20,881 nucleotides of DNA, from IMG/VR virus record IMGVR_UViG_3300021962_000783, positions 1-20,881 of that record, one strand, 5' to 3'. The position numbers and the translations under genes were made by a program. Of the stretch, positions 1-20,116 are shown piece after piece (position 1 is the first letter of the stretch; each line of letters opens with the position of its first letter). This DNA comes from a virus. A model generated the notes under the pieces. The model saw only the letters and a program-made list of their open reading frames with translations, ran no database searches and was not told the origin of the DNA.

Positions 1-21
1 TAGTGTTCTTAAATTTGACAT
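1..21 (-). CDS. Start of a further gene, cut off by the window edge
   Basis: Only seven codons (MSNLRTL) are inside the window. The ATG occupies 21-19 and shares its A with the TAA stop of the upstream gene (TAATG). The same junction occurs at three other places in this window, which supports a real, translationally coupled start. The product cannot be named. Its position at the end of the fibre block suggests another virion gene, but that is inference. Confidence 0.5.
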
Positions 22-686
22 TATGCTATTCTCCATCCCGTTACGTTATTATAATATGTTAAGTCAAATGATGCTGAAGCAACATTGACAATTAAATCTT
101 CAGCCAAAGACTGTATTGGATTACCATTTCTTGCTATTGTAAAATTTGTTGTACCTGCAGTACCTGCTGCATCTAAAAATTTAACTGTATCTCCAGGATT
201 TGGCAAGGAAGGTAAAGTAATAATCATACCCTCTGCTGGAACTACAAGCAATCTATCTCTTACTGTAGCCTGATAATTTGCTGTTATAGTTTGCCAAGCT
301 TTCATTACGTTTGGACTAACTGATGAGTCTAAGGCGGTGACTGTTGAAGACAATTGGGCAATATCTCCACCTGCAGTATTTACATAATTTTCTACAGCGT
401 AAATTCTTGTTTCATATGAATCTGAGGTGTCTTCAAGATCTGTTAACCTTTGTCCATTTACAGAATTGTTAATTGTAACTATTGCAGCATCTTTTGCTGC
501 TTCTAAAGCAGCAATTCTTTCATTTGTTGCTGCCAAAATATCATTTACACCCATTGATCTTGCTAGGGTATCAAGTGCTGAAGCTAATAAAACTAAGTCG
601 TTTGCATCAAGTGTTTCTGATGTTAGCGCAGTAACTTTTGTTTTAAATAAATCAACTTGGCTTGATAGGGTTGTATAGTCTGGCAT
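21..686 (-). CDS. Putative tail-fibre / appendage protein with coiled-coil stalk
   Basis: This is a 221-residue protein. Residues about 1-120 are Ala/Leu/Thr/Asp-rich with heptad-like spacing, as in a trimeric fibre stalk. Residues about 130-221 look like a small all-beta head: a stretch with PAEG, NPGD and FLDAAG followed by alternating hydrophobic residues and ending GWRIA. The end of the 10755-12068 protein has a similar Gly/Asn-rich beta pattern. No enzymatic motif is seen. A good ribosome site (AGGAGA) lies 6 bases before the ATG, in the 8-base gap after the 1165-residue virion gene. The stop overlaps the next ATG by one base. Virion role is inferred from composition and neighbours; the exact family is not recognised. 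Confidence 0.65.
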   Translation of the reverse strand: MPDYTTLSSQVDLFKTKVTALTSETLDANDLVLLASALDTLARSMGVNDILAATNERIAALEAAKDAAIVTINNSVNGQRLTDLEDTSDSYETRIYAVENYVNTAGGDIAQLSSTVTALDSSVSPNVMKAWQTITANYQATVRDRLLVVPAEGMIITLPSLPNPGDTVKFLDAAGTAGTTNFTIARNGNPIQSLAEDLIVNVASASFDLTYYNNVTGWRIA

Positions 687-694
687 TTTGTCTC

Positions 695-3600
695 CTAGGC
701 CTGTGCTTCAGTCCAAGAAATTCTAGCAAGGATATTTGCTGCAGAAGATCCTAAGTTTGTAGCAATAACTGTTAGTACGTCTGGACCATTAGGGAACGAT
801 GGGTTTGCCTGAGATCCATTACCATTTAGAATACAGTTTGCAAGGTCTCTAACTTTCTTAGCATCGAATGATGTAACAGAGAAGTTTGTACCACCAGCGT
901 TTTCTGTATAGAAGGCAAAAATACGATCTCCACCAGTGATGGTATTTGTAGGAGATGTAACTGGGGCACCAGTACCTCTAATACCAGTTCCATCGTGGTA
1001 AATTACTTGGGCCAAGGAACCAGAACCAACTCTTACTGATTCCCACTCTGCAGGTATTGCAATACCGTTCATTGTTGCTGGATTCAAAACACCTTCAATT
1101 AGGAACTGTCCTTGAGACAATACTCCAACTGAGTCTAGTTTCATCTGCATGCGGTTTGCAAGTTCACGTTGTCCGAAGTTTCTACCTAATCCGTTATCTG
1201 CCGAAGGTGCTACTCTAATTGAAATTAAAGGACGTGGGGTTGGTGTGCTTCCGAATGTCTGAATTGCAGTACCATTAGGGTTAATTGCAGAAATTGCTTC
1301 ATCTGCACCCTGAAGAGCATAAGTAAATGATGTTGGTGCAACAGAAGTGATTAAGAACGTTCCGTTAAATCGACTTGATGCAGTAATTCTTGCAGTTGAT
1401 ACAACCGATTGGAATCCAATGTTTGCAGATACTTTACTGAATGCAATTCTAGTAGCATCTGGAACTAATGACACTGTATATGTTCCGTTAAATATTGTAT
1501 CTACGCCAGTTATCGTCACTGACTGTCCAACTGTATAGTAGTGAGGAGAGCTTGTTGTTAGATAAGCAATATTATTTGTAAGCTGCTTATATGTAACTGT
1601 TGATATATCTTGAACACCTGAAATGGTTACGTTAGTTCCTGATGCCAATGTATGTGGACCAGATGTTGTAAGTGTTGCAACATTTGATAATGCTTGACGA
1701 TTTGTTACTGTAGCTGAAATTGTTCCAGATCCACCGACCTGAAGGTACTTCTGCATACCAGCTGTAAAGATGAATGACTTATCATCATTAAACCCGCCAT
1801 CCATAATTACGGATGATCCCCAGTGTGACATAACTGGTGCACAGTTTTGAGAAATTGTTTGTACCGAAACCTGTGAGGTTCCAGAGCCGCCTGGAATTGT
1901 AGAATCTGGAACAAAGTTTACCTGAGCAGATGTTCCATAAAGATTTAGTGGGACTCCACCATAAACTAGAGGCTGTGCAACTCTTCTTACAATATTTACT
2001 GCCCATGCCTGAATTGTTGGATTATATGCTCCAACTGATGTATATTCACAAATTTCAAAGTTAGAGCCATCTGCAATTCTCAAGAATCCGTTTGATGGCC
2101 AGAAACTTACGTCATTAACATAAATTACTGTATCTTGAGGAAATAAGGTAGACCCGCTAATTCCAGATCCTCCAGAAATTAATTTTGCAGAATTTAGAGG
2201 CTCATTAATTGTCTCATATCTTGCTGGAAGGTTGCCTGATCTCATGTATGATGCAGTATTAATATTATTCATTACCATCTTATGACACCAAACAACATTA
2301 CCATCAGTTGCTCTCATACCGAATCTAATTGATCCCGCTCCGTACCATGAGTAATCGATGTATGTCATCTGCATTTTAGATATGTCAAGAGTATATCCTG
2401 AAGGACCGTCTCCTAACATTGTATCTACGTTCCATTCTGATTGAGGAACCTTTTGAATTTGTGTTTTAATGTAAGGTGAATTTACAATACTTGGCCCACG
2501 ATATGCTGGAGCAATGTTTAAAGATGTATCAGAGTTAATTTGAATAACTCTATATGATTGGCCTCTAATTACAATTAGATCTCCAACTAGAAGCTGTTTT
2601 CTAAATCGTGTCTCCACTCCAGTTATTACATTTGAGAATTGTGTAGCAGAAATTTTTCCAAATAGTTCTTTGTTTGAAAATCTTCTTACTGCATATAAAG
2701 TCTTTCCGTCATATTCAAAATAAAATCCGTTTTGATCATCATATAGACCAGCTCTTGTTGCAGAGCCTTTCCATTGATATGCTGTTACGAATGCGTTAAC
2801 TCCGCCTGGCAACTGATCAATTGCAGTAATTGCAGAAGTAAATGTTTTTTGAACTTTAATAGTATTTGAATCTGTTACTTCATTAATAACAAACAAACCA
2901 TTAAATGGATTGTATGATCCAACAGTTTCAATTCCTTCAATTTTAACTGTAGCTCCTGCCTGTAAATTGTGATCTTGTAAAAGCTTAATAGTAATTGTGT
3001 TTGATCCAATTTGAGTGCTTGATGATGCAATATAAGAAATATCAAAAGATGGTGTGAACTTTGTTCCTGTTGAGAATTGAATTGACTTACCTGACTGATA
3101 TCTAAAGTATCTGCGTGTTTGTCTTAGTGTCTGAGTTCCGCATACGTTATTTCCTGTTGTTAAAATAACTCCGCCGTCGAATGGTCTGTGCTCAACGTAT
3201 CCTTCTGGCTTACAGAAAAGACCGATTCCTAAAGTATTTACTGTTCCTACTGGAACCTGGCCTTGTGTTATAAATGAGAATGAGTTTGGTGTTGTTACCC
3301 TATCAATCAAAAAGCTACCATTAATTGCGCTTCCTGAAGGGGCAGAAATCAAAATTGGAGTTCCTGGGTAAAGTCCATGTGGGTTTGTAGTAACAACATT
3401 AATTCTTGATAGTGCTGCGCCATCTGATGTTGCTGACCAAGCGTTTAAGTTTCCAGTGTTTCCTCCTGGAATATGAGCATTGTCAAATAATCCTCCACCA
3501 TAAACATTTGTTAATACTCCATCTTGTACGCTAGTTCCTGATGCAACAACTCCCTTAGCAACATATGAGAATACTGTTGAGCTTAATACTGTAACAAGAA

Positions 3601-4192
3601 ATGTTCCGTCTGTTAATGGGCTTGTAGACTCATTAACGCTTACAACATCTCCGTTATTTAATCCATGTGCGGATGCTGTTGTGATGTTAATTGTAGATCT
3701 TGGGGAACCTCCAGCTGAGAGTATTGAAACTACGTCTAGCGAGTTACCTCCAGTATTTCTAGAAAAGAATGTTGGGTAGTTATTTTGTAGAGAAAGTGAT
3801 TCCCATTTAGAGCCCTGAACGCCATACTCGAAGTCTGTATCAATTAAAGATTCTGGGTCAGATATTCTTAGTTTTCCAACTGCATCCACCATCGTTGGTT
3901 CTGGAATAAATGTTTCATATGGCTCATCAACCATAATTTGAAGAATGTCTGTTGAAGACATTGATGCTGTGTTATATTCAAGAACAAGTGTTGTTGAAGG
4001 GTCATTAGCGCTATTGCTAAGAGAATAAGAGGCTAGGCCTACTGCTGGATCTGAAAAATTATAGATTATCTTATTTTGAGTAACGTTTGTTATCAAAAGG
4101 AGATTTTTTCTCAAGACAACTCTTGGAATTATAATTGTAGATGTTGCAGGGGAAAATAGAATTCCCTGATCAGTAATTGCTCTTCTTGCCAT
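695..4192 (-). CDS. Large virion structural protein, baseplate/tail type, with HGL beta repeats
   Basis: This 1165-residue protein resembles large structural proteins seen in aquatic myophages. Recognisable stretches are SLIDTDFEYG near residue 120, YDDQNGFYFEYDG near 484-496, a central IDYSWYGAGSIRFG stretch, and SGNLPARYE. Interspersed are beta repeats of the form HGL-x2-GD-x-V ... NGTF-x-V ... T-FSY, near residues 165-215, 262-312 and 398-452, with about three more around 830-985. The last copy lacks its HGL half. The C-terminal ~170 residues form a separate conserved-looking domain (SQGQFLIEGVLNPATMNG). No signal peptide or enzyme motif is visible. The ribosome site is AAGGGAGA. The resemblance to phage virion proteins is from memory of the family; whether it is baseplate or fibre hub is inference. 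Confidence 0.75.
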   Translation of the reverse strand: MARRAITDQGILFSPATSTIIIPRVVLRKNLLLITNVTQNKIIYNFSDPAVGLASYSLSNSANDPSTTLVLEYNTASMSSTDILQIMVDEPYETFIPEPTMVDAVGKLRISDPESLIDTDFEYGVQGSKWESLSLQNNYPTFFSRNTGGNSLDVVSILSAGGSPRSTINITTASAHGLNNGDVVSVNESTSPLTDGTFLVTVLSSTVFSYVAKGVVASGTSVQDGVLTNVYGGGLFDNAHIPGGNTGNLNAWSATSDGAALSRINVVTTNPHGLYPGTPILISAPSGSAINGSFLIDRVTTPNSFSFITQGQVPVGTVNTLGIGLFCKPEGYVEHRPFDGGVILTTGNNVCGTQTLRQTRRYFRYQSGKSIQFSTGTKFTPSFDISYIASSSTQIGSNTITIKLLQDHNLQAGATVKIEGIETVGSYNPFNGLFVINEVTDSNTIKVQKTFTSAITAIDQLPGGVNAFVTAYQWKGSATRAGLYDDQNGFYFEYDGKTLYAVRRFSNKELFGKISATQFSNVITGVETRFRKQLLVGDLIVIRGQSYRVIQINSDTSLNIAPAYRGPSIVNSPYIKTQIQKVPQSEWNVDTMLGDGPSGYTLDISKMQMTYIDYSWYGAGSIRFGMRATDGNVVWCHKMVMNNINTASYMRSGNLPARYETINEPLNSAKLISGGSGISGSTLFPQDTVIYVNDVSFWPSNGFLRIADGSNFEICEYTSVGAYNPTIQAWAVNIVRRVAQPLVYGGVPLNLYGTSAQVNFVPDSTIPGGSGTSQVSVQTISQNCAPVMSHWGSSVIMDGGFNDDKSFIFTAGMQKYLQVGGSGTISATVTNRQALSNVATLTTSGPHTLASGTNVTISGVQDISTVTYKQLTNNIAYLTTSSPHYYTVGQSVTITGVDTIFNGTYTVSLVPDATRIAFSKVSANIGFQSVVSTARITASSRFNGTFLITSVAPTSFTYALQGADEAISAINPNGTAIQTFGSTPTPRPLISIRVAPSADNGLGRNFGQRELANRMQMKLDSVGVLSQGQFLIEGVLNPATMNGIAIPAEWESVRVGSGSLAQVIYHDGTGIRGTGAPVTSPTNTITGGDRIFAFYTENAGGTNFSVTSFDAKKVRDLANCILNGNGSQANPSFPNGPDVLTVIATNLGSSAANILARISWTEAQA

Positions 4193-4867: not shown

Positions 4868-6937
4868 TTAAACGCCAGCCCATATTAATGCTTCTGAATC
4901 AAAAGTTGGAAATATCTTGATCCATTGACCTGCTGCTGCTACGTATAAAGAAGCCTCTGAAGAAACGTATGCTATCATTCCGCCGTGCAAAGATGCTGTT
5001 GGCAAACTGGCATAGTCTGTTATTTGTGCTGCATTATTTTTAAACAAATCAGAATAAGTTATTTCGCCTTCTTCTGTTGTTAGATCTAGCCAAAATTCTG
5101 TTTGAGATGGGCTTGGTGGTGTTGTAGAAGACAAAATTGATTGACCACTTGTGTCGTCAAGATCTACCCAGAAGTCTCCTTCAATTGCAGTGTATGTAGG
5201 TGGCTCCTCATCTGAATAAATTAAAGGAAGATCTGGCTCATCTGTGTCTATCCACAGAGTGTCTAGTCCATATGTTCCCTCTGCTGGAGGATTAGGTCCC
5301 GCAAAAACAAATTCAGTAGAGCCTGCATCATCGTCAACATCTATCCAAAGATCACCTTCTGTTGTGGCTCCAGATGGCGGTGCAACTAATCCAACAAAGA
5401 ATGAACTTGGTGGTAATGATGTATCTGTTGGAAGTAACGCTAAACCTCCGCCTCCGCCTCCTTCTCCTTGAATATCTTGCCAAAGCAAACCATCCCAAAC
5501 TTTTAGTTTGTCTAACGGCTTGTTGTAATAAATTTGCCCTTCTACTGGACTTAAAGGTGCTGCATCAAGACCAATAATTATTCCATTAGTAAAAGTATTT
5601 TTAGATGTCCATGTGTTTGTTGTAGAAAGAGATAGGTCTGTTGCTATATACTCCCAAGAAGATGATAGCGCATTCCATACTTTTAATGCTCTAGTGTTTC
5701 CACTTCTATACTCATCTGTGTCAAACCAAAATTGTCCATCTATAGGATTTGTTGGTGCGGATGCAGACATTATAGCAGTTGATGGAGGAACATAAGCCTC
5801 TAATATCATCTTATTGGCTTCGTCATCATAGGTAACAGATATATTTGGATTTAAGCCATGTGCAAATAGAGGACCTATTGCATCCTGTACTTGTTCTTGG
5901 GTTAATTGAGCTACTGCGGTAAAATTAATTTTTCCAGTTACATCATCATAGGATGCAGTTAAATTAGTGTGTGTTCCAGAAGTTATTAGGCCTGCTGCCA
6001 CGTCTTGAATTTTTTCATCAATATCAAGTTCGCTTAAAGGAACTTTGCCATTTTCGTCAAGTGTAGCTATTCCATCTGGTTGACCAACTTGTGAAATTGG
6101 AACATATGTCTGAGCAGATGTATTGCCAAGCGCTGAGACTGCTGCGTCTGTATATGCTTTTGATGACGCTAAAGCTGTAGATATGGCTGTTGTTATTGTT
6201 GTTGAAAAATTTGGGTCATCATTAATTGCTGCAGCTATTTCGTTTAGGGTATCTAGTAGAGCTGGAGATGTATCAACTAAATTTGCAATTGCTTGATTTA
6301 CGTAGGCTTGGCTTGCTATGGTATTTGTATTTACTGCAATAGTAATTGATTGAGAAAAGTTATATAAAGACCAAGAGGCGTTTGTTGCTCCGCCTGGCTC
6401 TGGTGGATACCCAGGGTTGCTTGGGTTGCCTGTTCTTATAAAATAAGATCCTACTATTCCATAAGGACTTCCTTCTGGAATACTTACTACATCATTAAGA
6501 GCATAAGAATATCCATTGTCATAATCTCCTAGGTAGTTGGGTGGATTTTGGTTATATGTTTTTGTTATACCTGATCCAGCTGTTAAAGCATTTGCAACTG
6601 CAGAAATTGCTTCTTGATTATCATATGTTCCTGTTAAATTAATTTTTCTTGCATTATCATCATATGAAACTGTTATGTTTGTATGAGAGCCAGAAGTTAT
6701 GAGGCCTGCCGCTAGGTCTTCTATGGCATCTACGTTTAAATAATTATTTTCTAAAGATCTTACTTTATAGTCTAGGGAGTTGGGGTTAGATGAGTTATCT
6801 GCTCCGACTTTTTGTTCAAGTGCTTCAATGGCATCATTTGCGTCAGCGTGTTGCTTGGCATGGGGAACTACCTCAACCGAGTCAAGTGGTTGTGGGTTAA
6901 CTAAAACGTCTAGATTTGCTGGGAAGCTTGTTGCCAT
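4868..6937 (-). CDS. Long repeat-containing tail-fibre protein
   Basis: This is a 689-residue protein. Domain order: an N-terminal segment with LDYKVRSLEN; a repeat near 75-103 (LAAGLITSGSHTN..SYDD), repeated near 312-341 and again, more divergent, near 352-381; an insert at 137-192 with RTGNPSNPGYPPE, shared with the plus-strand collagen-like protein; a helical module 217-257; a module 258-305 (KAYTDAAVSALGNTS ... GIATLDENGKVP). After these come about six tandem beta repeats of the form P-P-x-EGD-x-W-x-D-x-DD between about 390 and 625. A GEGGGGGG hinge sits at 491-498. Both the helical and KAYTDA modules recur in the 10755-12068 fibre. The many Asp clusters could bind metal ions. The ribosome site is AGAGGTG. 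A fibre role is inferred from architecture. Confidence 0.75.
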   Translation of the reverse strand: MATSFPANLDVLVNPQPLDSVEVVPHAKQHADANDAIEALEQKVGADNSSNPNSLDYKVRSLENNYLNVDAIEDLAAGLITSGSHTNITVSYDDNARKINLTGTYDNQEAISAVANALTAGSGITKTYNQNPPNYLGDYDNGYSYALNDVVSIPEGSPYGIVGSYFIRTGNPSNPGYPPEPGGATNASWSLYNFSQSITIAVNTNTIASQAYVNQAIANLVDTSPALLDTLNEIAAAINDDPNFSTTITTAISTALASSKAYTDAAVSALGNTSAQTYVPISQVGQPDGIATLDENGKVPLSELDIDEKIQDVAAGLITSGTHTNLTASYDDVTGKINFTAVAQLTQEQVQDAIGPLFAHGLNPNISVTYDDEANKMILEAYVPPSTAIMSASAPTNPIDGQFWFDTDEYRSGNTRALKVWNALSSSWEYIATDLSLSTTNTWTSKNTFTNGIIIGLDAAPLSPVEGQIYYNKPLDKLKVWDGLLWQDIQGEGGGGGGLALLPTDTSLPPSSFFVGLVAPPSGATTEGDLWIDVDDDAGSTEFVFAGPNPPAEGTYGLDTLWIDTDEPDLPLIYSDEEPPTYTAIEGDFWVDLDDTSGQSILSSTTPPSPSQTEFWLDLTTEEGEITYSDLFKNNAAQITDYASLPTASLHGGMIAYVSSEASLYVAAAGQWIKIFPTFDSEALIWAGV

Positions 6938-6973: not shown

Positions 6974-7573
6974 TTAAAGGATTGGTATCCACTTATTAGG
7001 ATATTGCCTTTCAAGCATTGAAAGTGGGGCAATGCTAAAGGACAGGACCTTTGTATCAGAACTACCATATACTATTTTTTTACTAGATTCAAATAGCAGC
7101 AGGGATCCAGTCGCCGAGGACTCTTGAATATCATTAACCGTTACTTTGCTTTCGTTACTTGATTCAATAAAATATAGACCAGAAAAACACGGAATACCAC
7201 CTCCACCAATGTCATACCAAACGTCTGTGCGAATTTCTTCAGAGTATGAAGAGGATATATAATATGGCACATTTTTATTTATTCCATAATAGGAAAGGGC
7301 ATCCTTAAATAAAGAAGATATCTCCTTTAATAAATCATGCATTTGTTTATTATATGAGGCTAGGTAGTTTTTTGCATTTGGGTCCTCAACTGGTATAGAG
7401 CCAATAAACTCTGCCTTTAGTCCTCCAGTAAATCTATATACGTGGTCTAGGGGTGTCTTATTTTTTATAACATCTTGGATAACATTGTCTAATTTTAAAT
7501 TAGACTTAAAAATATAAAAAGGCTTTGTTTGTTTATTTATTAATAACTTTTCTGATTGACTAGAATTAATCAT
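6974..7573 (-). CDS. Hypothetical protein, possibly a degenerate 2OG-oxygenase-fold protein
   Basis: This 199-residue protein matches no family I can name with certainty. Its second half follows the strand order of phage 2OG-Fe(II) oxygenases: VWYDIGGGG, SGLYFI near 131, GSLLLFESSKKIVYG near 156-170, then LSFSIAPL. The positions where that family has the HxH/HxD iron ligands read GGGGIPC, and the distal His position reads KIVYG. If the fold is right, the iron site is lost. The start overlaps the stop of the GNAT-like gene by 8 bases, with ribosome site AGGTGG. It sits between the long fibre and a cluster of enzyme-like genes, so a fibre modification, chaperone or structural role is possible. 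Fold assignment is weak. Confidence 0.6.
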   Translation of the reverse strand: MINSSQSEKLLINKQTKPFYIFKSNLKLDNVIQDVIKNKTPLDHVYRFTGGLKAEFIGSIPVEDPNAKNYLASYNKQMHDLLKEISSLFKDALSYYGINKNVPYYISSSYSEEIRTDVWYDIGGGGIPCFSGLYFIESSNESKVTVNDIQESSATGSLLLFESSKKIVYGSSDTKVLSFSIAPLSMLERQYPNKWIPIL

Positions 7574-8105
7574 TTATTCCACCTATTCTTTGCTCATACC
7601 AAATTACTGGAGATGTAGGATCCCTTGGAGGTTCCTGTTCGTTCATAAAAAACCTTCCATTCATAATTGGAGAGTTTGGGTTATTATGTTTTAATACTTT
7701 TGAAATATTTTTATAGAACTTATTTGCAACTGGGCTTCTATTTCTTGAACCTTCTATAACAAGATTAAAGTTTGTATAAAAAACAGACCTTAAAAGTCCA
7801 GCTAGGTATTTCCAGTACCCACGTCTTCTGTATATGGGATTTGTATACATTCTATCTGATACAAAGCTGTCGCCTTCAACTTTTTGTAAGGTATACATAT
7901 CTGGATATTTATTGCTAACAAATTCAGAAACTATAATAGTTCCCTTTGGATAAGTATTATCTTTGTACATAGATATGGATAGGCTTATAACACTTCCATT
8001 AATAAAAGAAGCATGTATCCAGGAGTCTCCCAACTCTGAAGGATACTGAGATAATTCAACTAGCGAGATCCCGTCTATTTCTACGGCATTTAGAACCGTA
8101 CTCAT
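7566..8105 (-). CDS. Probable GNAT-like N-acetyltransferase
   Basis: This is a 179-residue protein. A hydrophobic strand-rich first half is followed by the GNAT-type acetyl-CoA loop in NPIYRRRGYWKYLAGLL near residues 88-104. The R-R-R-G matches R/Q-x-x-G, but the usual following G/A is a Trp. A later ANKFYKNI segment resembles GNAT motif B. GNAT enzymes transfer acetyl from acetyl-CoA to amines; the substrate here is unknown. The gene starts 2 bases after the Hint-protein stop, without a strong ribosome site, so translation is probably coupled. It also overlaps the next gene by 8 bases. Its place inside a fibre block suggests acetylation of a virion protein or host surface target (inference). 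Confidence 0.5.
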   Translation of the reverse strand: MSTVLNAVEIDGISLVELSQYPSELGDSWIHASFINGSVISLSISMYKDNTYPKGTIIVSEFVSNKYPDMYTLQKVEGDSFVSDRMYTNPIYRRRGYWKYLAGLLRSVFYTNFNLVIEGSRNRSPVANKFYKNISKVLKHNNPNSPIMNGRFFMNEQEPPRDPTSPVIWYEQRIGGIND

Positions 8106-8107
8106 TT

Positions 8108-9028
8108 TTAAATTGATACAGAATCGTGAACAAGCATATGCTCTGTAAAGAATATGTCGTATGGTTCGCAGTTTATAGATATAACCTCATGTGGAATGTC
8201 TGCAACCTGAATATCTACAATTTCAACCCAATTACTATCTGCTAAATCATAAACAAGGTCTGAATAAATTACCTCTGTAGATAAAACAAATTTAGAAACA
8301 CCTTCTCTTTTTATAAAGATATAGTGTGTGTCAGAAAATACATCTCCATTAATTAAAACACCTCTTGCAGAGGTTCTTCTATTTAAACTAACAATTGTTG
8401 TTGTTGTTTCTGATACAGAAGGGTCTATTGCGGTCCAATCTAGTGCTTGTTGTGCTGTGTTTAATAAGCTGTCATACGGAAATCCCTGTATGTCTGCAGA
8501 AACTAACGTATCTCCTACTTGTAGGTCTTTAGCAGGAACCAGCCCGTTTGGCGTAATTATTAAAGTAGTTATCCCAATTGATTTTTGTGGAGGGGTAAAA
8601 TTTAAAGGTGGAATATCAATTGGTGGTGATTCTGGTGGCGCATTAAAGTATGGCGGAGCATTATCGTATGGTGGTGGGTTAGAATATGGATTGTAGTATA
8701 CGTTATCATATGGCGGCGGATTACTATATGGATTATAGTATGGATTATAATAAGGATTATAGTAAGGTGCAACATATGATCTAAAAACAAAATTTACTGT
8801 AGATCCGATTGTGACAGTTGTGCCTGCAGGAATACTTTGAGTAGAAAGAATTCCATCTAAACCAGAGTCTGATGTGCTTTCAGATGATTCAGAGTAGCTT
8901 AAACCTACATTTAATAATGCCGCTTGAGCTGCTAATCTTGAAAGGCCCGTAAGGTTAGGCACATTAACTTTTCTAGATCCAAATTTTGCTTTTTTAAGTT
9001 TTGCAACTATCTTTTTGCCTTTTGCCAT
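8108..9028 (-). CDS. PASTA - Tyr/Pro/Asn repeat - Hint domain protein
   Basis: This 306-residue protein has three parts. Residues 1-20 are Lys-rich. Residues about 21-83 form a PASTA-like domain (VPNLTGLSRLAAQAALL ... IPAGTTVTIGSTVNFVF), a fold that in other proteins binds peptidoglycan. Residues 87-140 are a repeat linker built from YYNP and a 14-residue unit, YYNPYSNPPPYDN plus one residue, present twice at 97-124. Residues about 150-302 look like a Hint (Hedgehog/intein) domain: TPNGLVPAKDLQVGDTL at 159-175, TH at 234-235, and the ending FFTEHMLVHDS. The first Hint residue aligns with Ser150 instead of Cys, the penultimate is His301, the last is Asp302 instead of Asn, and Ser303 follows. 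No signal peptide is seen. The ribosome site AGGGAGG is strong. Autoprocessing is possible but unproven. Confidence 0.75.
   Translation of the reverse strand: MAKGKKIVAKLKKAKFGSRKVNVPNLTGLSRLAAQAALLNVGLSYSESSESTSDSGLDGILSTQSIPAGTTVTIGSTVNFVFRSYVAPYYNPYYNPYYNPYSNPPPYDNVYYNPYSNPPPYDNAPPYFNAPPESPPIDIPPLNFTPPQKSIGITTLIITPNGLVPAKDLQVGDTLVSADIQGFPYDSLLNTAQQALDWTAIDPSVSETTTTIVSLNRRTSARGVLINGDVFSDTHYIFIKREGVSKFVLSTEVIYSDLVYDLADSNWVEIVDIQVADIPHEVISINCEPYDIFFTEHMLVHDSVSI
8657..8740 (-). repeat. Two 42-bp tandem repeats encoding the Tyr/Pro/Asn linker
   Basis: Two imperfect 42-bp units encode a 14-residue YYNPYSNPPPYDN-type repeat, and extra YYNP units continue to about 8764. The copies differ at several bases, mostly silent, so the peptide is conserved more than the DNA. 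Such a track can vary in copy number by slippage. Confidence 0.8.
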
Positions 9029-9412
9029 TTACTTTGCCTCCCTGTATCCGATAGCAGCATTACCTGCAGGGACTCTTATAAAATTAAATACTCTTGGTCC
9101 ATCATGCCGTGGAATTAAATTATTTTTTTCTATTTCATTATAAACATCTTGAATACTTAAAAAACTACCATTATTTTGTAAGCTATTAAATTCTTTTACT
9201 AAATGGTTGTGACTGGACAAAGCATCTTCTTCATTTAAATAATACTTAGAATATAAAATTGCTAGCTGCCTGACTCTTCCTTTTTCATCACACTCAAAAA
9301 CTGCAGTTTGATATTTACCAGCCGCTGTTTTTATTGTCTCTAAAAGCAAATGTGTATCTGGAAATAAGAAGATGTCTTCGTGCTGCCATCTGACTAACGT
9401 TGGATCATGCAT
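9029..9412 (-). CDS. Hypothetical protein
   Basis: I do not recognise this 127-residue soluble-looking protein. The start chosen is the ATG at 9412 rather than an in-frame GTG 24 bases upstream. AGGAG lies 8 bases before this ATG, and the ATG shares a base with the TAA stop of the preceding gene (TAATG), the junction used repeatedly here. Visible features are an aromatic/acidic beginning (MHDPTLVRWQHEDIFLFPD), a charged middle and the end GNAAIGYREAK. No zinc, nucleotide-binding or membrane motifs are seen. It lies between the PASTA-Hint protein and the protein with the dUTPase-like motif, in a cluster of non-fibre genes. Confidence 0.7.
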   Translation of the reverse strand: MHDPTLVRWQHEDIFLFPDTHLLLETIKTAAGKYQTAVFECDEKGRVRQLAILYSKYYLNEEDALSSHNHLVKEFNSLQNNGSFLSIQDVYNEIEKNNLIPRHDGPRVFNFIRVPAGNAAIGYREAK

Positions 9413-10137
9413 TAGGAATACTCCTTTTTTTGCCACTTTTCTTTTTTATAAAATCCTGAAAATAAATTCATTCTTTTTTCTTGTTCTTTTTGGCCTTCGT
9501 ACCTCAAAGATAGATTTTTTTCTGAAATCCAAGGTTCTCTTTTTATTGGAATAATTTGATATATTGGAGTTCCTTTTGATATTATACCTTCAAATCCTTC
9601 TTTTAGGTGAAAGCTTATATTTCCTGGAGAAGAGTAATGGTCTGTATCAATAATTGCAGATGGTGTTATAAACGGAAGCTCTGGTCTATTCATTGGGCTA
9701 GTTAATATACAAGACCATCCTGGTGGGGTTTTGATGCCCCACTGCATAAGCCAAGCAAAGTGTTTTGAAGAATATCCTAGCGATGTATCAATTTCATCTC
9801 GGTTTCTTACTTGAATAGGATTTAATGGGGATCTCCATTTAGCATATTGCTCACCATTTTTTATAGTTATTTGTATGTCACAATGTAGCTCTTGAATATA
9901 TCCTGCAGTCATTGCGTCAAAATACGGTATGCAGTGCTTAAGTCCAGTATTTGGAACTGCGTTTCCAGCATCGTCCTTGCCGTATAGCACAAGATCTTCT
10001 GATCCAACATATCTTGGTTTATCTTTCCAGCTTGCAGGAATATGTGATTTTGCCAATGATGGCATTTTAGAAACGTTTTCTGCTAATTCGCTCCATGAAT
10101 AGAATTCTATTTTATTAACATTTGTTTTACTTTTCAT
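9412..10137 (-). CDS. Conserved phage-type protein with a dUTPase-like motif (possibly DUF6065)
   Basis: This 241-residue protein has a layout I associate with an uncharacterised phage family, possibly DUF6065: HCIPYFDAMTAGY at 68-80, WGIKTPPGWSCILTSPMNRPE near 133-153, IIDTDHY at 162-168, and KGTPIYQIIPIKREPW at 188-203. The pair IIDTD-Y plus G-T-P-x-x-Q-x-I resembles the GVIDxDY and G-x-R-x-A-Q motifs of trimeric dUTPase/dCTP deaminase folds, but the other dUTPase motifs are not evident. The start overlaps the oxygenase stop by 4 bases (ATGA), so the two are coupled. The C-terminus is Lys/Glu-rich. Function is unknown; a nucleotide-related or sugar/fibre-related role are both open. Confidence 0.7.
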   Translation of the reverse strand: MKSKTNVNKIEFYSWSELAENVSKMPSLAKSHIPASWKDKPRYVGSEDLVLYGKDDAGNAVPNTGLKHCIPYFDAMTAGYIQELHCDIQITIKNGEQYAKWRSPLNPIQVRNRDEIDTSLGYSSKHFAWLMQWGIKTPPGWSCILTSPMNRPELPFITPSAIIDTDHYSSPGNISFHLKEGFEGIISKGTPIYQIIPIKREPWISEKNLSLRYEGQKEQEKRMNLFSGFYKKEKWQKKEYS

Positions 10138-10751
10138 TGAGGAAGCCTATCTTTATGTGACTCAAAATACGTGTAAAACATATTTACAGTATATCTGCAT
10201 CCTTCTTCTATTTTTCTTACGCCGTGTGCATGGTGCTTATCTCCTGGGAAAAAGGCTAACATTCTTTTTTTAATCTCTATTATGTGATCATGTTGTGGGA
10301 AATAAATTTGTCCGCCCTTAAAGTCATCATTTAAATAAAGAACAACTCCAATATCTCTCCAGTTCCAAATATGTGGCTCTCTACCAAAATTTTCATAGTC
10401 TGAATGAGGAGGCTGCTCTTCTCCCAGCGGCCATCTAATTAAGTTTAATGAATCTGCATAAATATCTTCTTTTAGATTCCAGGTTTCAATAATTTTTTCT
10501 CTAATTCTTTTTCTAATTGATATGCATAGATTCATTATCTCAAGATCTTTTGGATTATTAAATCCTTTTTCTGGTACGGTAAGATTTATAACGCCTAGGA
10601 ATCTTTTTGACCAGTGCTGGCTTGGATCGCTTTTAATATCACTCTTATCCCACAAATCATTATCCGTTAAATACTTTTCATAATCCAATATAGCGTTACA
10701 TTCGTCTTCTGATATAAAATCATATACAACGGTGATGTCTTCTTTTGCCAC
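10134..10751 (-). CDS. 2OG-Fe(II) oxygenase, prolyl-4-hydroxylase type
   Basis: This is a 205-residue protein. The enzyme family couples oxidation of 2-oxoglutarate to hydroxylation of a substrate, using iron. Ligands visible are H116-x-D118 (PPHSDYENFG) and a distal His in HHAHGV, most likely H176. R186 in GCRYTVNMFYTYF is the expected 2-oxoglutarate-binding Arg. The GGQIYFPQ segment and FFPGD also match the family. Length is usual for phage members. The start is a GTG 3 bases after the stop of the fibre gene; no better start is near. It overlaps the next gene by 4 bases. Substrate is unknown. Its position between fibre genes, in a phage with collagen-like proteins, makes a fibre protein a candidate (inference). 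Confidence 0.88.
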   Translation of the reverse strand: MAKEDITVVYDFISEDECNAILDYEKYLTDNDLWDKSDIKSDPSQHWSKRFLGVINLTVPEKGFNNPKDLEIMNLCISIRKRIREKIIETWNLKEDIYADSLNLIRWPLGEEQPPHSDYENFGREPHIWNWRDIGVVLYLNDDFKGGQIYFPQHDHIIEIKKRMLAFFPGDKHHAHGVRKIEEGCRYTVNMFYTYFESHKDRLPQ

Positions 10752-14952: not shown

Positions 14953-14980
14953 ATTCTACCATACTAGGCAGATATGTCCA
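14953..14980 (-). promoter_or_regulatory. Promoter of the holin-like gene
   Basis: TGGACA (five of six bases match TTGACA) at 14980-14975, a 16-base spacer, and TAGAAT at 14958-14953 with an upstream TGG extended element. The -35 lies inside the end of nrdJ. The -10 and its TGG are identical to those of the nrdJ promoter. Confidence 0.65.
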
Positions 14981-16898
14981 CTATCTCACAATTTCCATCG
15001 GAAGTACAAGCAAGAGTGGCATTAGTTGAGGTTCCATCTTCTGTTTCATAGAATGATAAATCTTCCCACCGAATGTTGTTGGGCATTTTTGCAACAAGCG
15101 CATCATACTCTGACTTATCAACTTCTTGATATGGGGCTTGCTTATATGTGTGGTCTGAGTGTGGTAGGAATGAAATTCCTGATACCTCATCAAAATGTTT
15201 GTAAACCCAAGCGCCAACTTCCATCCATTCATCTTCCTTTACAGAAACTGTAATTGATGGCTTATGCTCACACCATGCACGTTGGTAAACTAACCATGTA
15301 TTTAAATGGTCCAACGCCGTTAAATCATTTCTGACAATTGCACCTTCTGGTGCTTTTACTGGAAATGAAAATACATAGGTGTCGTTTGGCTTCATTACGT
15401 CGTCTTCTACTGGAATCCCCACCTCTTTAAGGAAAGTAGAAATTGGATCTCCTTTAGATCCACGTACTGTGCGAATGTAATATGGTGAATGCCAAGGGTG
15501 CATTCCTGAAGATACTCCTACTAATTGAGATACTGTTCCCGAAGGCTTTACGCAAGTAATTGCGGCTGATTCTGGGATTCCAATTTTTTCAGATTCTGCT
15601 TTATTAATTTCTCTTGCCTTTTCACGCATAGACATTAAAAATGCCTCAAGTGCAATAATGTCTTCTTTGCCAGACATGAACTTGTGTCCGAACTGACCAG
15701 TTAAAGAAACTCCAAGCAACCGCTCTTCTTCTGTATTGTCTTTCCAAATTTTTCTAAGGTACTTAAAGTCTGTTAAAGTTGATTGCCAGGTGCCAAGTAT
15801 GGTGGCAAGTTCTACTTTTCTTTGAATATCCTTCTTTGTATCTTTTTCACGTAATACGACTTCTGAAAGGTTACAAAACTGATAAGGACGTAAGATAATC
15901 TCTGAGCAGGGGTTAGTTCCGTAGTGAATATCTGGATCTCTTCTGCCAAATTTAGCTGCCTGCGCTTGTGCTGCTGCAACATTATAGATTCCACGTTCTC
16001 CTGATTTAGAGTCATAAAGGTTTTTCCATTCTGCTATAAATTGCTCCATCTCTGGCTTGCGAGAATATGCAACAGAGTTATTTGAAAGTGCACGTTGTGT
16101 ATTATTTTCCCACCAGTTACCTGATTTTGCTGCGGCCATTTCAATGTCATTAATATTAGAAAGAGAAATCATTGCAGAACGTCGAACTCCACCAACTACA
16201 ACCACTTCTCCAATTTTACACATAATATCATGTGCTTCAATTGGCTTCAATTGGCGACCTGCTGCATTTTTAAACTTTGCAATTGTAAAATCAAATAAAT
16301 TAATTAATGGTTGTGGTCCAGATGATCTTCCGCCCATTGTCTTAAGACGTGCACCTGCTGGGCGTACCTTACTAACATCGATTGCTGGAATATGTCCAGT
16401 CCAAAGAAGTGCTAAAAGTTCACGATATGCTTTTGCCCAACCCTGCTTAGAATCTTCTACAACAATTACTGTATCTGACTTTTCAAATGAATCTGGGACG
16501 GCAGGAAGTTTATTAACATATTTATATTCAACAGAAAATCCAACACCTGTACCGCACATAAGGATATACATAGTTTCGTCAAATGATCTTGGATTGTCTA
16601 CTGGAACAAATGAGCAATTGTATCCTGCAACATTGTCTCTTTCTAGTGCAGCTCCAGCAGTCATTACTGATCGCATAGAGGGCATAACATTTCTTTGGAA
16701 TACACCGTCTTTTAATTCCGCTACAAGCTTCTCATCTGGAATATAATTATGGTTTTCTTTTAGATGATTTAACATAAAGTCAAAGTATCTATCTACTGTT
16801 TCTCCCCAAGTCTCACGTCGGTTTTCTTCTGGGATCCAACGTGCATATCTTGATAATGCAATAAAATTTTCATATGGGTTAGCAATAGTCTTTGACAT
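14964..16898 (-). CDS. nrdJ: Adenosylcobalamin-dependent (class II) ribonucleoside-triphosphate reductase
   Basis: This 644-residue enzyme reduces ribonucleotides to deoxyribonucleotides for phage DNA synthesis, using adenosylcobalamin to generate a thiyl radical. Visible motifs: GYNCSF with C95 (first redox Cys); NPCSEI with C331 and E333; FCNLSEV with C342, whose 11-residue spacing from C331 matches C408/C419 of the Lactobacillus enzyme; KPSGTVSQLVGVSSG at 451-465; and a C-terminal pair C631/C637 (CTSDGNC) that would re-reduce the active site. The length is shorter than the roughly 740 residues of the Lactobacillus form. It has its own promoter and no cobalamin riboswitch in the short leader. 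It is a monocistronic or two-gene unit with the holin-like gene. B12 must come from the host. Confidence 0.95.
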   Translation of the reverse strand: MSKTIANPYENFIALSRYARWIPEENRRETWGETVDRYFDFMLNHLKENHNYIPDEKLVAELKDGVFQRNVMPSMRSVMTAGAALERDNVAGYNCSFVPVDNPRSFDETMYILMCGTGVGFSVEYKYVNKLPAVPDSFEKSDTVIVVEDSKQGWAKAYRELLALLWTGHIPAIDVSKVRPAGARLKTMGGRSSGPQPLINLFDFTIAKFKNAAGRQLKPIEAHDIMCKIGEVVVVGGVRRSAMISLSNINDIEMAAAKSGNWWENNTQRALSNNSVAYSRKPEMEQFIAEWKNLYDSKSGERGIYNVAAAQAQAAKFGRRDPDIHYGTNPCSEIILRPYQFCNLSEVVLREKDTKKDIQRKVELATILGTWQSTLTDFKYLRKIWKDNTEEERLLGVSLTGQFGHKFMSGKEDIIALEAFLMSMREKAREINKAESEKIGIPESAAITCVKPSGTVSQLVGVSSGMHPWHSPYYIRTVRGSKGDPISTFLKEVGIPVEDDVMKPNDTYVFSFPVKAPEGAIVRNDLTALDHLNTWLVYQRAWCEHKPSITVSVKEDEWMEVGAWVYKHFDEVSGISFLPHSDHTYKQAPYQEVDKSEYDALVAKMPNNIRWEDLSFYETEDGTSTNATLACTSDGNCEIVDISA

Positions 16899-20025: not shown

Positions 20026-20041
20026 AGATTTCCTGACATTG

Positions 20042-20116
20042 TAGGGATACTGGGATTTGAACCCAGAGTCGTTTGTATATAAGACAAATGCTTTAACCAG
20101 ATTAAGCTATATCCCC
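20042..20116 (-). tRNA. tRNA-Ile(UAU), reading AUA codons
   Basis: The cloverleaf is complete. Acceptor stem GGGGATA/TATCCCT (first pair G-T), D-arm GCTT/AAGC, anticodon stem TTTGT/ACAAA with loop CTTATAT, variable loop of 5, T-arm CTGGG/CCCAG with loop TTCAAAT, discriminator A. Anticodon TAT decodes AUA directly. The 3' end is followed by CAA, so CCA is not encoded. Bacteria normally read AUA with a CAU tRNA modified to lysidine by TilS; this phage supplies a different tRNA. In the lysozyme-like gene five of nine Ile codons are ATA. Total length is 75 bases. Confidence 0.92.

Follow-up and report, generated by a model that had tools for sequence, protein, structure and literature searches.

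The stretch analysed here (the window) comprises the 20,881 nucleotides of IMG/VR record IMGVR_UViG_3300021962_000783, which stems from an uncultured aquatic phage. The open reading frame (ORF) at positions 8108..9028 of its minus strand encodes a protein of 306 amino acids, in which a PASTA domain is joined through a Tyr/Pro stalk to a C-terminal Hint domain. These three parts had been proposed in a first-pass annotation of the sequence, and all of them were recovered by Pfam, composition and modelling. The PASTA domain (residues 21-82, 8783..8968) matches PF03793 with an E-value of 1.9e-9 and 37.8 bits, above the gathering cut-off of 23.2, and resembles the PASTA chains of PrkC/PknB in the PDB. 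The Tyr/Pro/Asn-rich repeat stalk (residues 86-148, 8585..8773) contains 33% Pro, 21% Tyr and 16% Asn and was modelled with low confidence (pLDDT about 50-60). The predicted scissile bond is located at the Lys149-Ser150 junction (8579..8584), and the Hint domain, delimited by the family profile and model alignments, covers residues 150-302 (8123..8581). It includes the block-B histidine H235 (8324..8326) and the end motif H301-D302-S303 (8120..8128), Asp302 being followed by a tail of four residues, SVSI (8111..8122). For a cut at 149/150 the computed masses are 16.28 and 17.30 kDa, in agreement with the fragments near 16 and 17 kDa predicted earlier.

The neighbouring genes described here lie on the same strand. 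A gene encoding a 179-aa protein with a predicted GNAT fold, p179, which the first-pass annotation had missed, starts 2 nt downstream (7566..8105). It is followed by the conserved neighbour p199 (6974..7573), which has homologues in 50 of the 86 loci examined first. In one p199 homologue (locus L053, 9312-9971) a WHEHGG...HGYY stretch resembles an iron-binding site; the window copy reads WYDIGGGG instead, so p199 may be a degenerate oxygenase. Upstream of the Hint gene are a conserved 135-aa neighbour (9029..9436, homologues in 6 loci), a DUF6065-like gene (phrog_7084, 9412..10137), recognized by Pfam/PHROGs and by locus comparison, and a 2OG-Fe(II) oxygenase gene (10134..10751, PF13640 E-value 2e-8, homologues in 29 loci). 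Genes of the latter two types are often found directly behind the Cys1 and other-Ser1 Hint genes described below, and the Cys1-type loci carry two 2OG-Fe(II) oxygenase genes in tandem. In the window as in locus L001 (3294-4485), 2OG-Fe(II) oxygenase genes adjoin Pro/Tyr-rich stalk proteins, and one idea is that the enzyme could hydroxylate prolyl or other residues of the stalk. The window also contains a gene for a B12-dependent ribonucleotide reductase (14964-16898, 644 aa; TIGR02505 score 307 for a cut-off of 340) and a tRNA-Ile gene with a TAT anticodon (20041-20116, minus strand).

The ORF lies in a tail-fibre-like gene cluster that includes Mtd_N and virion structural proteins, and its homologues carry virion structural or tail protein annotations. 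For the large neighbour at 695-4192, the nearest named relatives include Synechococcus myovirus virion proteins with about 40% identity, a likeness by which the host is not fixed. The product of the ORF is probably a phage tail-region protein, and we infer that it acts as a virion adhesin.

With the single sequence, Pfam and PHROGs yielded weak Hint matches (Intein_splicing 0.012 and Hint_2 0.2 in Pfam), and family profiles were required for a clear match. The family profile matched the bacterial intein-like (BIL) domain 2LWY of C. thermocellum (E-value 7.4e-9) and, with an E-value of about 1e-7, the gp41-1 intein, which supports the Hint fold suggested in the first-pass annotation. The Hint core of the AlphaFold2 model has a pLDDT of about 97. 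VIA-align superposed it on the BIL2 domain 6TMM with a Z-score of 18.1 and an rmsd of 1.9 over 138 residues, and on Hedgehog 1AT0 with a Z-score of 16.8; the top Foldseek rows for this predicted model were likewise BIL, intein and Hedgehog domains, in lists that report matches and do not serve to exclude other folds. Position 150 pairs with Hedgehog residue 258, and in the alignment with the Mtu RecA intein 150..302 is matched to 1..440; S150 thus corresponds to position 1 and D302 to the position of the terminal Asn. By fold equivalence on the model S150, H235 and D302 occupy Hint active-site positions, which bears out the earlier reading of Ser150 as position 1 and of H301-D302-S303 as the end of the domain. 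As modelled, the C-terminus of the protein belongs to the Hint superfamily by its fold, its position-1 Ser and its block-B His. Inteins usually have Asp at position 4 of block F and most Cys1 members Asp or Asn; the window protein has Ser there.

Relatives were collected by scans of IMG/VR, resulting in 184 loci with 190 Hint genes, among them the window and a few loci of named phages; some contigs were fetched twice, so these counts are partly non-independent. Both named-phage rows were left out of fold modelling. A non-redundant set of 117 sequences falls into three groups: 14 of the type Cys1...His-Asn, 52 of the type Lys(-1)-Ser1...(His 42/Tyr 10)-Asp, including the window protein, and 51 with a residue other than Lys at -1 and Ser1...(mostly Phe)-Asp/Glu. 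In a phylogeny from which the trait columns had been excluded, support was 97 for the Lys-Ser group, 100 for the Cys1 group and weak for the other-Ser1 group. Three members with Lys-Gly-Ser at the junction fall inside the Lys-Ser clade, with a joint support of 97. A search of bacterial genome contigs with a single peptide pattern yielded no relative.

The catalytic positions are strongly conserved. H235 is invariant (117/117) and a nucleophile is kept at position 1 in all relatives, so that no homologue lacking Ser, Cys or Thr at this position was encountered. Position 1 is Ser in all 103 Ser1 relatives and their terminal residue is Asp in 101 and Glu in 2; the Asp end is therefore a signature of the whole Ser1 clades and no oddity of this protein, residue 301 being His, Tyr or Phe depending on the clade. 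Ten columns have zero entropy over these 103 rows (S150, T155, G172, H235, I285, E288, P289, D291, F293 and T295). In the Lys-Ser clade Ser1 is encoded by TCN in 37 members and by AGY in 15, and the use of both serine codon boxes indicates that it is under selection. K149 is present in 52/52 members of this clade; since ten different residues occupy position -1 in the other-Ser1 clade, the fold does not need a Lys there. In these sequences, the Ser1...Asp Hint type is common among environmental phages.

The N-terminal parts are exchanged among the relatives: PASTA occurs in 33/117, and others carry fibronectin III, List_Bact repeats or unassigned parts. Peptidoglycan binding, which the first-pass annotation considered possible for the PASTA part, is a putative function of that part. 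Most have a low-complexity stalk before the junction, made of YYNP, FFPP, FGFTP, FGAF, FSHYAG or Pro-rich repeats. An N-domain, a low-complexity stalk and a Hint domain are thus combined in many environmental phage contigs, and the three-part layout, for which the first-pass annotation named no phage system, is not unique to this phage. The tails after the terminal Asp mostly contain 2-7 residues, and because they are so short only the N-terminal junction is likely to matter.

The junction lysine is linked to p179. Of the 85 Lys-Ser Hint genes, 69 have p179 as their immediate neighbour and 7 have it elsewhere in the locus; 3 have no room for it, and 6 lack it (L054, L059, L055, L068, L074 and L080). 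In the case of L055 it is present elsewhere in the full record, and the other five are short or cut records in which absence cannot be judged. Two of these, L074 and L080, are YDG-type loci with an 81-aa Cys-rich protein (DUF6171-like; 6561-6803 and 622-864, respectively) in the position of p179. No p179 accompanied any of the 105 Hint genes of the Cys1 and other-Ser1 groups, nor was it found in 41 whole records of these groups, some of them over 100 kb, one of the whole-record searches also giving three positive matches. In the reverse direction, 45 loci were fetched with p179 alone, partially overlapping with the earlier loci and with one at a contig edge. A Hint gene lies upstream of p179 in 44/44 testable loci, within 80 nt in 42 and at about 600 nt in 2. 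The junctions are K-S in 40 of them and K-G-S in 3, and in the remaining one (L214) the contig ends before the start of the Hint gene; the lysine is present wherever the junction is visible. We looked for multiple independent acquisitions of Lys and p179 and found none; Lys-Ser and K-G-S members form the single clade mentioned above. As far as the sequences tell, the K149/p179 link is of single evolutionary origin and strictly kept.

The model of p179 has a pLDDT of 87. GNAT acyltransferases make up nearly all of its structural neighbours, with modest VIA-align Z-scores of 5.8-7.4 and weak Foldseek E-values (0.025); Acetyltransf_1 matched 7/43 members, at best with 2.6e-4. The model thus assigns p179 a GNAT fold at modest scores. 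In the acyl-CoA loop, for which GNAT proteins have (Q/R)xxGx(G/A), Arg93 is invariant, RxxG is found in 34/44 members and the full RxxGx(G/A) in 9/44, the window copy reading RRRGYW; as most members lack the canonical RxxGx[GA] motif, p179 may conceivably be an inactive enzyme. It was not found in named phages, nor in IMG/VR with the window sequence as query, and the p179 loci were recovered with subsets of the family, the full alignment being too diverse.

Hedgehog and BIL domains cleave or attach at their N-terminal junction. The most likely interpretation of the sequences is that the Hint domain likewise processes the Lys149-Ser150 bond and that Lys149 is the residue which the GNAT-like protein modifies or makes use of. 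The reading that uses most of the evidence, and to which we are led by inference, is that of an ester formed at Ser1 of the N-junction with the help of His235 and resolved by a nucleophile. In a His235-assisted N-to-O acyl shift, the Hint domain would convert the Lys149-Ser150 peptide bond into an ester at Ser150. This ester would then be resolved by water or another nucleophile, whereby the PASTA-stalk part would be freed or attached to an acceptor. Asp302, which replaces the cyclising Asn, would serve as an acid/base or positioning group; as only four residues follow, it is more likely a non-splicing residue. p179 would most likely acylate or otherwise use Lys149, the best candidate for its target because this Lys is dispensable for the fold and fixed only in the p179-carrying clade. 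We tentatively favour, at somewhat less than an even chance, a self-processing tail-region adhesin with a dedicated GNAT-fold partner acting on or using Lys149. It builds on the domains, the predicted fold, the identity of the catalytic positions, their conservation and the gene linkage. Against it count the Ser of block F, the loss of the motif and the weak Foldseek E-values of p179, and the single origin of the K149/p179 linkage, which could for that reason reflect shared history. A more specific version, which we regard as speculative, is a two-component maturation of surface proteins, in which the GNAT-fold enzyme acting on the adjacent Lys would license or direct the N-junction reaction of the Ser1/Asp Hint domain, so that the stalked adhesin would be set free or covalently linked to another virion or host molecule.

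The strongest alternative, in our view a possible but rather doubtful one, is a purely structural role of a recruited Hint fold, as a non-cleaving C-terminal tip or folding cap, with p179 as a fibre chaperone encoded where such a chaperone usually lies, directly downstream of the fibre gene. Fibre chaperones can be co-encoded with the fibre gene and may serve as caps (PMC10579305). Five contigs (L052, L062, L065, L067 and L069) carry two Lys-Ser Hint genes and one visible p179, which suggests that p179 acts in trans and would suit a chaperone. However, the invariant residues coincide with the Hint superfamily's catalytic positions, Ser1 is kept over two codon boxes, and p179 has a GNAT fold and not the helical or beta-hairpin form of fibre chaperones.

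True splicing, by which the Hint domain would be excised and the PASTA stalk joined to SVSI, seems improbable. Splicing has been described for inteins that end in Asp (review PMC4031507), and Ser303, a Ser in 42/52 members of the Lys-Ser clade, could act as the +1 nucleophile. Yet the YDG members have Gly at this place, and it is unconserved in the sister clade, which has also lost the penultimate His; moreover, the C-extein would have just 2-7 residues in most relatives, and an intein-free host gene for comparison is absent. We consider slightly less probable still a covalent cross-link, either an isopeptide between Lys149 and Asp302 or a transfer of the Ser150 ester to a Lys of another chain. 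The two residues flank one active site by fold equivalence and do not vary within the p179-linked clade, but three members have the K-G-S spacing and the sister clade retains the Asp without the Lys. Finally, a decayed Hint relic devoid of function, as the presence of Ser in place of Cys1 and of the block F Asp, and of Asp in place of Asn, might suggest, is highly improbable and already contradicted by the strict conservation over 103 diverse sequences, the use of both codon boxes and the fixed partner gene.

Labels such as "Hint", "PASTA" and "intein domain" are already found on phage proteins in databases. In the open-licence literature we found no papers on the Ser1/Asp Hint type, its repeats or its GNAT link, and this type is apparently an undescribed branch of the Hint superfamily, neither intein nor A-type BIL. 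The branch is large, has its own active-site signature, resides on exchangeable phage surface proteins and is tied to a GNAT-fold gene; the Hint gene and the adjacent predicted acetyltransferase suggest a two-gene machine processing phage surface proteins. If active, it would represent a natural Ser/Asp protein-processing or ligation module, possibly under enzymatic control, and a new route for phages to mature their host-recognition proteins.

Class 1 inteins have a C-terminal Asn and a +1 Cys, Ser or Thr, and are inserted in an otherwise conserved host protein. The window domain does not fit this class: it has Asp302 in place of the Asn, a +1 residue that is Ser303 here but Gly or others in relatives, and a C-terminal location, with variable parts before it and a tail of 4 aa after it. 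Class 3 inteins lack a position-1 nucleophile and have a block F Cys (WCT); here Ser1 is invariant and the block F position is mostly Ser. Peptidase S74, the intramolecular chaperone of tail fibres, is a self-removing C-terminal domain (PMC7824862); it is similar in concept but has a different fold, and Pfam found no S74 match in the window protein. Phage NCTB ("intein domain") and jumbo phages of Erwinia, Dickeya and Yersinia also carry C-terminal Hint domains on tail-cluster proteins, but of the Cys1...His-Asn type with Gly at -1 and with no p179 in the whole records searched. In NCTB (L090; 1-744, 744-1205 and 2356-6483) there are two Cys1...HN Hint tail proteins and a protein of 153 aa, labelled "intein domain protein", whose last two residues are His-Asn and which has no evident Cys1 start. 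A full-length structural match is A0A6J5NY54, an uncultured Caudovirales "PASTA_pknB domain containing protein" annotated solely as PASTA. The Hedgehog autoprocessing domain 1AT0 shares the fold, and chemistry at the N-junction only would be expected for both; the window domain differs by its Ser1, its terminal Asp and the lack of a visible sterol part. The best structural and profile match is with BIL domains (2LWY and Tetrahymena BUBL BIL2 6TMM), which have the same fold and block A/B/F/G layout and are, as predicted here, auto-processing domains on a non-conserved host protein. A-type BIL domains end in His-Asn (PMC7765530), which separates them from the His-Asp end found here and from the Asp or Glu of all Ser1 relatives. 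Compared with BIL domains, the window domain is thus distinguished by Ser1 instead of Cys1, its Asp end, the Ser of block F, its location at the C-terminus of the protein and its GNAT-fold partner gene.
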